Positions 50,484 to 54,658 of a stretch of DNA of 64,000 nt are shown piece by piece. Source of the stretch: Gemmatimonadaceae bacterium (GTDB lineage Bacteria > Gemmatimonadota > Gemmatimonadetes > Gemmatimonadales > Gemmatimonadaceae). The translations under genes were made by a program, and so were the position numbers. Numbering within the stretch: the stretch's first letter is position 1; every line of letters begins with the position of its first letter. The DNA is taken from NCBI GenBank assembly GCA_036496605.1, contig DASXKV010000054.1, positions 62,001 to 126,000 of the forward strand, read 5' to 3'. The notes below the pieces were generated by a model. It had not been told where the DNA came from, ran no database searches, and was given only the letters and a program-made list of their open reading frames with translations.

Positions 50484-50852
50484 ATGCTTCGGTCTCCCCT
50501 CACGCGCGTCCGCAAGCTCTGCCTCGCTCTTCCTGAGGCGCACGAGGTGGAAGCGTGGGGTGAGCCGACCTTTCGCGTCAAGAACAAACTCTTTGCGATG
50601 TACGCCTCGTCAGGCAATCACCACGGCGCTGGCCGTCCCGCGATCTGGATGAAAGCGCCTCCCGGCAATCAGGATATCATGGTGCGCGCTCAGCCCGATC
50701 GTTTCTTCGTTCCGCCGTACGTGGGACCGAGCGGCTGGATCGGCGTCAATCTCGACGCCGACGTCGATTGGAAAGAGCTCGACATGCTGCTGCGCGACTC
50801 GTATCGGCTCATCGCGCCGAAGCGCCTCGCCGCGCGCGTGGAGGGCGAATGA
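50484..50852 (+). CDS. MmcQ/YjbR family protein
   Basis: The protein has 122 residues. It is a typical YjbR/CyaY-like fold: RKLCLALPEAHEVEAWGEPTFRVKNKLFAMYA, then AIWMKAPPGNQDIMV and the conserved PYVGPSGWIGVNL. It was proposed to bind DNA, with no defined role. It is coupled by ATGA overlap to the EVE gene. Confidence 0.9.
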   Translation: MLRSPLTRVRKLCLALPEAHEVEAWGEPTFRVKNKLFAMYASSGNHHGAGRPAIWMKAPPGNQDIMVRAQPDRFFVPPYVGPSGWIGVNLDADVDWKELDMLLRDSYRLIAPKRLAARVEGE

Positions 50853-51376
50853 CGCCCACCGAGCATGGCGAAGGACGATGGGCCGCCGCCTTCACACCAC
50901 GGGCACCTAACGAGAAACGTTACTGGCTCGTGAAATCCGAGCCCGACGTGTTCTCCTTCGACGACCTCCGTGCCGCGCCCAAGCAGACTACGCAATGGGA
51001 CGGCGTGCGCAATTTCGCCGCGCGCAACTTCCTTCGCGACGGAATGAAGCGCGGCGACCACGTCTTCTTCTACCACTCGAGCTCCAACCCGCAAGCAATC
51101 GTTGGCATCGCCGAAGTCGCGCGCGACGGCTACCCCGATCCAACCGCGACGGACAAGAAGCATCCCGCATTCGATCCAAAGTCCGACGCGAAGGATCCAA
51201 CCTGGTATGCCGTCGACATCAAGGCCGTTGCGCCGCTGCCGCGGCCGGTGACGCTCGCCGAGATCAAGGGGGACAAGGCGCTCGCCGACATGGCGCTCGT
51301 CCGCATCGGCCGGCTCTCGGTTTCGCCAGTGACGCCGAAGGAGTGGGCGACGATCGTCGCGATGGCCGACCGCTGA
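50849..51376 (+). CDS. EVE domain protein
   Basis: The protein has 175 residues. The domain begins with RYWLVKSEPDVFSFDDL, then WDGVRNFAARNFLRDGMKRGDHVFFYHSSSNPQAIVGIAEVARDGYPD and VDIKAVAPLPRPVTLAEIKGDKALADMALVRIGRLSVSPVT. EVE domains are PUA-like and are known to bind modified bases in DNA or RNA. The start overlaps the YjbR stop and the stop overlaps the DUF488 start (TGATG), so expression is coupled. Confidence 0.93.
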   Translation: MTPTEHGEGRWAAAFTPRAPNEKRYWLVKSEPDVFSFDDLRAAPKQTTQWDGVRNFAARNFLRDGMKRGDHVFFYHSSSNPQAIVGIAEVARDGYPDPTATDKKHPAFDPKSDAKDPTWYAVDIKAVAPLPRPVTLAEIKGDKALADMALVRIGRLSVSPVTPKEWATIVAMADR

Positions 51377-51765
51377 TGGCGATCTGTGTCGTTAGGCTCG
51401 GAGAGCCGCGCGAATCGAACGAGGGACTGCGGCTCGGTACCGTCCGCCGGCCCCCGCGCGGCGTCCGCAAGGAGGATTTCGCGACCGGCGACTGGTTCGA
51501 TCTCTGGCTCCCTGATCTTGCGCCGACAGCCGCCATCGTCAAATGGGCATTCTCCGAGCCGTGGACACAGGCACGCTGGGAGAAGTTCGCGCGCGCCTAC
51601 CGCCGCGAGATGCGTGCGCCCGAGCAGCAGCGCCTCATTGCGCTTCTCGCGGCCTTGTCAAAGCAAGCGAATTTCTCGATCGGCTGTTACTGCGAAGACG
51701 CCTCCCACTGCCATCGGACGCTGCTCGCCGAGCTTCTCGTCGACGCCGGCGCGACGGTCGTCTAA
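51376..51765 (+). CDS. DUF488 family protein
   Basis: The protein has 129 residues. The N-terminal Rossmann-like part is short (RLGEPRESNEGLRLGTVRRPPRGV, DLWLPDLAP). The C-terminal signature NFSIGCYCEDASHCHRTLLAELL, with two Cys and the HCHR box, is diagnostic of DUF488. The function is unknown; the CxC...HCHR box suggests metal binding or a thiol enzyme. It is the last gene of the coupled group. Confidence 0.88.
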   Translation: MAICVVRLGEPRESNEGLRLGTVRRPPRGVRKEDFATGDWFDLWLPDLAPTAAIVKWAFSEPWTQARWEKFARAYRREMRAPEQQRLIALLAALSKQANFSIGCYCEDASHCHRTLLAELLVDAGATVV

Positions 51766-52343: not shown

Positions 52344-52946
52344 ATGGCTCGTACATACCTCTTCCCGGAGCTCTCCGTGGCGAACGAGACTATTGACTGG
52401 CAGAAGGACGTCGACGCCGCGCTCGCGCAGGCGGCTCATGAGAACAAGCCTCTTCTTCTCGACGTCACCGCTGCGCCAACCTGAACGGGCTGTGCTCGGC
52501 TGGAAGCCGAGGTGTATCCGGATCCACGCGTCGGCGCGTTCATTGCGCGGCGATTCGTACCCGTGCGTATCCACGTCAAAGATCAGCCGACGATGTGGAA
52601 GCGCTTCGAGATTCGCTGGACGCCGACGGTGCTGGTCCTGGCGCCAGACGGCAGCGAGGTCCGGCGGGTCGAGGGCTTTCTCCCCAAAGAGGAACTACTC
52701 GGTCAGCTGGGTCTGGCGTTAGGCTATCTCGGCGTGAAGCGCAAGGACTGGACGGCCGCGCGGCAGGAGTTCGACGATGTGGTCCAACAGTACCCGGACA
52801 CGAGCGCCGGCCCTGAAGCACTCTATTGGAGCGGAGTGGCGAAATACAGCGCGAGCCATGACGCGTCGGAGCTCAGAGCACTGGGGAAGCAGTTTAAAGA
52901 ACGTTATACGGACACCGCATGGGCAAAGCGGGCCTCGATCTGGTAA
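52344..52946 (+). CDS. Candidate selenoprotein: thioredoxin-like with in-frame TGA (UxxC) plus TPR
   Basis: The frame is continuous from ATG 52344 to TAA 52944-52946 (200 residues), except for one TGA at 52482-52484, codon 47. Before it: AAHENKPLLLDVTAAPT. After it: TGCARLEAEVYPDPRVGAF, then RFVPVRIHVKD and RWTPTVLVLAPDGSEVRR, a complete thioredoxin-like domain. TGA therefore occupies the first position of the redox motif, giving Sec47-Thr-Gly-Cys50. A C-terminal TPR-like segment follows (KDWTAARQEFDDVVQQYPDTSAGPEALYW). A hairpin 17 bases after TGA fits a bacterial SECIS. Alternatives are a nonsense mutation or a short gene starting at GTG 52512, but this would leave half a thioredoxin fold on each side. 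No sel genes are in the window. Confidence 0.78.
52486..52520 (+). promoter_or_regulatory. SECIS-like hairpin directly downstream of the in-frame TGA
   Basis: The upper stem is CTCGGCT (52495-52501) with AGCCGAG (52505-52511), seven perfect pairs, and the apical loop is GGA (52502-52504). Below it is a symmetric 5x5 internal loop and a 4-bp lower stem (52486-52489 with 52517-52520). The distance from the TGA to the loop is 17 bases. Published bacterial SECIS rules (loop with G in its first two positions, 16-37 bases from UGA) are met. Confidence 0.7.
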
Positions 52947-52954
52947 GGCGCGCG

Positions 52955-54658
52955 CTAGCGCGCCTTCCACATCGACCTCACCACGCCGAGCAGCAACACC
53001 ACGGCGGCAACGACGCCAGTCGTCGCCGTGAAGTGATCGCCGCGCACCCGCGCCAGATAGGCAATGATGCCCGCGCCAGCGGCGAGAACACCGAACACCA
53101 ACTGCTGCGCCGCGTCGTACACGAGATTCGCGCTCTCGCGTAGCCCCTGAACGCGGATCTCGACGTCGCCGCGATTCGCCCGAGCGACGAGGCGGTTGAG
53201 CCCCTCCGGTAGCGTCAGGACCGAGAGTGCCATGTCCTTCACTGCGGACCTAACGAGTGTCACCCAGTCCTGTCCGCGGCCGAGGACGAACTCCTCGAGA
53301 TATGGTTGAATCGTCCGCATCGGCGCCATCGTGGGATCCAGGGTCGTGCACAGGCCGAGCAGAAGGAGGATCGTCCGCTCGAGAAGCACCCAATCCTTCG
53401 GCACCCGGAATGTACGGGTCAACTCGCGAAACGAGACGTCGAGCTTCCGCAGGTCGGCGAGCATCTCGGCCTTGGCGCGCACGTCGACCTGAACGTCGCG
53501 GAGGCTGAAGGACTCGAGTGAGACCTGCTCGAGAAAGCGCCGCTGGAAGTATTCGATCACGCGTTCGGCGACGTCTTCCTCGTCGGGCGCTCGGCCGTCG
53601 GCTTCGACGCGCGCAACGAATCCCATCCGACGCAATGCACCCGTGATCCGCGACGACTCGCGTTTGAAAATGCCGTCGAGGAACTGCGGAATCCCCTCCT
53701 TCATGTCGCGCGACAACAGCCCAACGGCGCCGAAGTCGACGAAGACGATGCTTCCGTCGTCTCGCACGAGAATGTTGCCGGGATGCGGATCGGCGTGATA
53801 CACGCCGTCGACGAAGATCATCTGGCAGTACGCCGTGAGGATACGCTGCGCCAGCGCCGGGCGATCGATGCCGCGGCGCTCGAGCTCGGCGAGATCGGTC
53901 ACCTTCGTCGCCTCGATGAGCTCCGTCGTCAACACTTTCTCTGTTGAGAAATCTCGAATCACGACGGGAAACTCGACCATCGGGTCGCTGCCGAAGCGCG
54001 ACCCGATGAGCGCGATGTTCTCCGCTTCCTTCCGGAAGTCGAGCTCGTCGCGAATCATCGCGCTGATCTCGCTGTGGTACGACTCGATGCCACGGACCCG
54101 CGTGACGAACTGGACGATGCCGAGGATGCGCCTAATCGCGGTGAGATCGAGCTGCGTGATCTCGTCGATGTCGGCGTGCTGCACCTTGACCGCGACACGT
54201 ACTCCATTGTGCAGCCGCGCCTCATGGACCTGCGCGAGCGAGGCACTCGCCATCGGCTCGGGATTCCACCAGGCGAACAGCGAGTTCGGTCCTCGCCCGA
54301 ATTCCCGTTCGATGCGTTCGACGATCTGCTCCAACGGCCGCGCGGGAATCGAATCCTGCAGTCCTTCGAGCTCGCGCCGGAATTCTTCGGGTAGAAAATT
54401 GGCGAGAATGCTGATGAGCTGCCCGACTTTGATGAATAGTCCGTCGAGCTCGATGATCGCGCGCTCGATGCGCCGCGCGTTGACGCGATGCTTCTCGAAG
54501 AGCCTGCGCTCGTACCCGTCAGGCGTGAGAAACGGACGGCGCAGCCGCAATACCAGATAACTCGCGAGCACGCGCAACGTGACGCCGTAGGCTTTCGCGA
54601 GCCGGAAGCGCGGCCGGTCGTGGTCGAGTCTCACGGGCGAAAGCTCGCCAGCCCCCAT
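52955..54658 (-). CDS. UbiB/ABC1 family atypical kinase, membrane anchored
   Basis: The protein has 567 residues. UbiB hallmarks are the KxGQ motif (DGLFIKVGQLISI near residue 76), the Ala-rich loop ASASLAQVHEA near 137 replacing the P-loop, VAVKVQH with the Lys, DELDFRKEAENI, VYHADPHPGNILV (catalytic Asp/Asn) and VFVDFGAVG (metal Asp). Two C-terminal transmembrane helices (about 515-560) anchor it. The family supports ubiquinone/quinone lipid biosynthesis or trafficking through ATPase activity. It is convergent with the candidate selenoprotein gene (8 bases apart). Confidence 0.93.
   Translation of the reverse strand: MGAGELSPVRLDHDRPRFRLAKAYGVTLRVLASYLVLRLRRPFLTPDGYERRLFEKHRVNARRIERAIIELDGLFIKVGQLISILANFLPEEFRRELEGLQDSIPARPLEQIVERIEREFGRGPNSLFAWWNPEPMASASLAQVHEARLHNGVRVAVKVQHADIDEITQLDLTAIRRILGIVQFVTRVRGIESYHSEISAMIRDELDFRKEAENIALIGSRFGSDPMVEFPVVIRDFSTEKVLTTELIEATKVTDLAELERRGIDRPALAQRILTAYCQMIFVDGVYHADPHPGNILVRDDGSIVFVDFGAVGLLSRDMKEGIPQFLDGIFKRESSRITGALRRMGFVARVEADGRAPDEEDVAERVIEYFQRRFLEQVSLESFSLRDVQVDVRAKAEMLADLRKLDVSFRELTRTFRVPKDWVLLERTILLLLGLCTTLDPTMAPMRTIQPYLEEFVLGRGQDWVTLVRSAVKDMALSVLTLPEGLNRLVARANRGDVEIRVQGLRESANLVYDAAQQLVFGVLAAGAGIIAYLARVRGDHFTATTGVVAAVVLLLGVVRSMWKAR

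Follow-up and report, generated by a model that had tools for sequence, protein, structure and literature searches.

A predicted selenocysteine-containing thioredoxin-like protein with a TPR-like tail and its relatives in Gemmatimonadota and Acidobacteriota

We found that a UGA codon at position 52482 of a Gemmatimonadaceae contig is very probably read as selenocysteine (Sec) in a thioredoxin-like protein. The region analyzed, hereafter the window, is a 64,000-nucleotide stretch of contig DASXKV010000054.1, and the features of the selenoprotein gene given below lie on its forward strand. Judged on sequence comparisons, the protein appears to be a thioredoxin-like UxxC selenoprotein whose relatives form a family that we did not find in current catalogues. 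With rather less assurance, we favor the broader view that these proteins constitute an uncatalogued family of stand-alone, cytosolic thioredoxin-TPR proteins, nearly all containing Sec, with a patchy and partly lateral distribution between Acidobacteriota and Gemmatimonadota, two placements of the SECIS element, and possibly a role as a Sec-based chaperedoxin. A selenoprotein had been proposed at this locus from the letters of the DNA, and that interpretation was supported, with corrections to the start codon and to the weight given to the hairpin alone.

Results and Discussion

A single in-frame UGA at the active site

The original prediction described a frame at 52344-52946 that was intact on either side of one TGA (52482-52484), and a reading-frame check confirmed that the frame is otherwise open. 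Its extent stands, apart from the start, which we moved from ATG 52344 to GTG 52377. The latter is probably the true initiator, because it aligns with the homologue starts (e.g., MATTTETTKWQRDV in the nearest homologue) and has a Shine-Dalgarno-like GGAG (52367..52370) 6 nt upstream, with an equivalent motif upstream of the start in most homologues. In contrast, ATG 52344 is without a clear ribosome-binding site and its 11 extra residues are unmatched in homologues. The predicted gene (52377..52946) would thus extend from this GTG to a TAA stop (52944-52946) and encode 189 amino acids, with Sec at residue 36.

The TGA sits in the context ...DVTAAPT-U-TGC-ARL..., where it is the first residue of a CxxC motif (U-T-G-C), followed by the resolving Cys39 (52491..52493). 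When translated through the TGA, the protein matched Pfam Thioredoxin_2 (E 1.5e-12) and Thioredoxin_7 (E 4.9e-12), as well as Thioredox_DsbH, and the TGA fell at the CxxC position of the first two profiles, in agreement with its proposed location at the first active-site cysteine of a thioredoxin domain.

Conservation of the UGA across two phyla

We searched 395 genomes of the phylum Gemmatimonadota and 396 of the phylum Acidobacteriota, and the homologues recovered came mostly from draft genomes. Among the former, 15 genomes yielded 17 matches that each contained a single internal TGA, and there was one Cys form (L023, with the motif C-K-G-C); the aligned Gemmatimonadota homologues were 28-78% identical to the window's protein. 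The Acidobacteriota contributed 24 full-length or nearly full-length matches with one TGA and again one Cys form (L084). Relatives in named public genomes included Gemmatimonas sp. and members of Acidobacteriota groups 6 and 7. Across the 44 aligned proteins, the codon at Sec36 was TGA in 42 and TGC, encoding Cys, in two, so that the alignment of full homologues at this codon, proposed at the outset as a check, exposed no other residue, and the second cysteine was invariant. Moreover, each of the 42 TGA-form homologues had exactly one in-frame TGA, always at the same codon.

A stop within a gene usually signifies a nonsense mutation or a sequencing error, here in an ordinary CxxC thioredoxin-like gene that would have become a pseudogene, and a hairpin beside it could by itself be due to chance. 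The conservation of the TGA refutes this explanation: the codon is shared by homologues from two phyla that have no other in-frame stop, and its identical occurrence in dozens of independent genomes rules out an error of sequencing. Additionally, the coding sequence on both sides of the UGA is under purifying selection. Against the nearest relative, dN/dS for the window's gene was 0.14 over the 142 codons that follow the UGA, a value which argues that the frame is not dead, and 0.33 over the codons that precede it; comparisons with relatives gave 0.14-0.28 after the UGA. We consider a pseudogene to have next to no likelihood.

Selenocysteine machinery accompanies the TGA form

If the UGA encodes Sec, selA, selB, selD and tRNA-Sec were expected elsewhere in the genome, as the original prediction had it, and all four were found in the source assembly (5.97 Mb, 97% complete) with scores over their cut-offs. 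Specifically, profile searches matched selA at 542 bits, selB at 361 bits, and selD at 377 bits, while tRNA-Sec scored 78 bits and was called by ARAGORN as tRNA-SeC with anticodon tca. The selD gene (L058) itself has one internal TGA, and because this sits in the context CAG-U-AAK, SelD of the source genome is also predicted to be a selenoprotein. The tRNA-Sec and selD genes adjoin each other on contig C9, about 100 bp apart.

The machinery was likewise present in genomes that carry the TGA form. Matches to selA were recovered in 14 of the 15 Gemmatimonadota genomes (one a fragment) and in 28 of 28 Acidobacteriota genomes (two being fragments at contig ends), while in the fifteenth Gemmatimonadota genome (G378) tRNA-Sec was present and selA unmatched. 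Thus, selA and/or tRNA-Sec occurred in 43 of 43 sampled TGA-form genomes, whereas neither was detected in the two Cys-form genomes (G285 and G721). Fisher's exact test on these 43 versus 2 genomes gave p ~0.001, a rough value given that the genomes are related. One acidobacterial genome (G528) had two tRNA-Sec matches of equal score on separate contigs (C18 and C32), one of them at a contig end; the pair probably reflects an assembly duplicate.

Synonymous sites of the downstream hairpin are nearly frozen

The hairpin originally described, with a 7-bp stem and a GGA loop beginning 10 nt after the TGA, is present as a candidate SECIS apical hairpin (CTCGGCT-GGA-AGCCGAG, 52495..52511, loop 52502-52504), but its stability alone was not above chance. 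Compared with shuffled sequences its z-score was -1.13, and 27 of the 200 shuffles were at least as stable; compared with synonymous recoding p was 0.27. We therefore dropped stability as evidence, and the Cys-form control L023 even folds significantly well in the same kind of thermodynamic test, which shows that stability alone is misleading. The Rfam model SECIS_1 had no match in the source genome and was silent in all of the control genomes too, which makes its silence here uninformative.

The significance of the hairpin, as we read the alignments, rests on codon conservation and not on energy. Codons +4 to +9 after the UGA comprise both arms and the loop and are near-invariant at synonymous sites. 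In 32 main-group sequences from the two phyla, the counts were GCT 28/31, CGG 32/32, CTG 31/32, GAA or GAT at the fourth position, GCC 31/31, and GAG 32/32. For the first 17 sequences, codon identity (mean pairwise, counted at shared residues) was 1.0 at +4, +5, +6, +8, and +9 versus 0.50 elsewhere. The six hairpin codons showed zero synonymous differences in eight of eight pairs, with dS of 0.13-1.6 in the rest of the gene. No covariation was seen in the stem within the main group, the subgroup to which the window belongs, where most base pairs never vary and the remaining ones only break.

A sister subgroup of 10 sequences (L024, L025, L080-L083, and L085-L088) has the motif PGULGC or NPxUIGC and retains Sec, and its hairpin (GGATGC-CGTGAC-GTATCC) lies 7 nt further downstream. 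Within this alignment 98% of pair cells were standard, and sliding the pairing partner abolished pairing. Covariation appeared modest, in that one pair changed from A-U to G-C and two cells were double-changed, a number reached by 31 of 500 shuffles. Since the displaced hairpin is built of other codons, the RNA signal, on this comparison, has moved within the coding sequence between the subgroups. Together, the frozen codons and the displaced sister hairpin point to a SECIS hairpin directly downstream of the UGA with selection acting on the RNA.

These observations also bear on how the UGA is read. Any code that assigns an amino acid to UGA would leave the frame open, so that leaky read-through or reassignment to Trp or Gly could in principle explain it. 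However, 22 of the 44 family members themselves terminate with TGA, from which it follows that UGA is not globally reassigned, and the aligned alternative residue is Cys, never Trp or Gly. Nor would such readings account for TGA tracking the Sec machinery across genomes or for a hairpin frozen at synonymous sites, and we regard them as highly improbable. In the preferred reading, the hairpin just downstream would direct SelB and tRNA-Sec to decode the UGA as Sec.

A predicted thioredoxin fold with a helical tail

An AlphaFold2 model built from the 44 sequences (mean pLDDT 96.5, pTM 0.91) contained a thioredoxin fold followed by a helical tail. The thioredoxin-fold domain (residues 5-111, 52389..52709) is delineated by Pfam, by the model, and by its match to the C-terminal domain of DsbD (Z 13.6, rmsd 1.8 over 107 residues); DsbH was matched as well. 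Sec36 immediately precedes helix 37-46, which puts UxxC at the N-terminal end of that helix, the first of the active site, and Pro83 of a WTPT motif (52623..52625) is invariant in the 44 homologues. We take Pro83 to be the cis-proline expected beside the active site of thioredoxins.

The model also speaks to the possibility that the locus encodes two proteins, a 35-residue peptide terminated by the UGA and, starting from GTG 52512, a second protein of 144 residues. An open reading frame initiated by that GTG does exist (52512-52946) and is what a gene caller would annotate. Yet the split would fall inside the active-site helix of the thioredoxin fold, the active-site residues on either side are conserved together, and the model forms one domain across the site, which leaves two separate proteins very unlikely and a single Sec-containing protein as the preferred product.

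The tail (residues 104-186, 52686..52934) is TPR-like, with five modeled helices (104-121, 125-138, 144-160, 164-176, and 181-186), and is followed by a conserved end, WAKRASIW. It matched BamD with Z 13.7 and rmsd 1.7 over 87 residues, although a Z of this size between helical repeats may only mean a common arrangement; the TPR domain of YbgF was also matched, and the TPR_6 profile was matched in 13 of the 44 members. No hydrophobic N-terminal segment was found in any member (the highest 12-residue mean hydropathy was 1.03), and because no signal peptide was seen we infer a cytosolic location.

A reductase with a docking tail is, in our estimation, the somewhat better bet for the function. 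By analogy to the superfamily, the thioredoxin-fold domain with its U-T-G-C site would reduce disulfides or other oxidized thiols. The Sec36 selenolate would act as first attacker and Cys39 would resolve the resulting selenenyl-sulfide, with Pro83 beside the site. Less confidently, the TPR-like tail and its conserved WAK[KR]AS[VI]W end may bind a partner or client, which would make the protein a dedicated reductase and not a general thioredoxin.

Alternatively, the selenoprotein might be a chaperedoxin like CnoX/YbbN, that is, a holdase that protects client thiols, and not a catalytic reductase. CnoX combines a thioredoxin domain with a TPR domain, has chaperone and redox functions, and hands its clients to GroEL (PMC8129009). 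The window's protein has the same domain order, a thioredoxin domain followed by TPR-type helices, and YbbN structures were among the Foldseek matches (3qou, E 4.6e-6; 3qdn, E 9.8e-6). However, the superposition on YbbN is poor (rmsd 11.6 for 3qou), with 16% identity in the structural alignment, and the tail is far shorter, with five helices versus two subdomains of five in CnoX. Furthermore, E. coli CnoX has SxxC, whereas UxxC or CxxC is retained in every member here, including the catalytic UxxC of the window's protein. We thus view a chaperedoxin as a doubtful, though not negligible, alternative to the reductase with a docking tail.

Relationship to known selenoproteins

The window's protein had no match near a curated cut-off in NCBIfam: its best matches scored 43.5 bits against VPGUxxT type 2, for which the cut-off is 275, and 43 bits against TsoB, for which it is 805. 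A 2026 inventory lists 119 prokaryotic selenoprotein families and subfamilies, from which a thioredoxin-TPR protein is absent (PMC13188914), and our literature search found no paper on a thioredoxin-TPR selenoprotein or on Gemmatimonadota selenoproteins.

The nearest in kind is a PF13098 thiol:disulfide interchange protein with UxxC (WP_011366075.1), known from early bacterial selenoproteome surveys (PMC13188914, Table 1). It shares a Thioredoxin_2-type domain and Sec at the first CxxC position, while the table mentions no TPR tail; a distant common family is possible. The inventory also lists a VPGUxxT family (PMC13188914), represented in NCBIfam by NF041383 and NF041382, for which the match noted above spans residues 5-157 and a P-x-U context is common to both. 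In contrast, VPGUxxT is by name U-x-x-T, and not U-x-x-C, and its profile has a length of 287 versus 189 residues for the window's protein. Membership in NF041383 was rejected on the score and because every member of the present family has UxxC or CxxC. Finally, the C-terminal domains of DsbD and of the selenoprotein TsoB (profile E 1e-11 for the latter), together with DsbH, have the same thioredoxin subfold, but in DsbD and TsoB it is one part of a large multi-domain protein, whereas the window's protein stands alone, bears a helical tail, and has no signal peptide.

Standard gene callers truncate the gene at its active site, and the family is thus easily missed. Its recognition would add to the selenoproteins known from two phyla that are abundant and poorly cultured. 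Moreover, with Sec in nearly all members found and Cys in only two, both from genomes without detected Sec machinery, it is well suited to examining what maintains the use of selenium, and its near-frozen hairpin codons supply many natural sequences with which to study how SelB recognizes SECIS elements.

Distribution and gene surroundings

The gene is patchily distributed within the window's own taxonomic family, with matches at E 1e-22 in 11 of 179 genomes, the weakest of which covered the thioredoxin part only. Lateral transfer between the phyla is likely, since the tree required at least five changes of phylum membership and grouped the window's protein with an Acidobacteria gp7 protein (support 98/91). 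A plasmid search returned no match.

No conserved gene neighborhood was recognized within 1.5-3 kb, and recurrent neighbors were shared between close relatives only, so gene context does not indicate a substrate. Upstream of the selenoprotein gene are ORFs that we take to be EVE-domain-like and DUF488-like (window 50768-51765; L040), and these are common to the closest relative. Immediately 3′ of the stop codon, a palindrome (GGCGCGCGCTAGCGCGCC, 52947-52964) lies between convergent genes, the minus-strand neighbor ending at 52955; it is without a T-run and absent from the scan output, and is possibly a terminator shared by the two genes.
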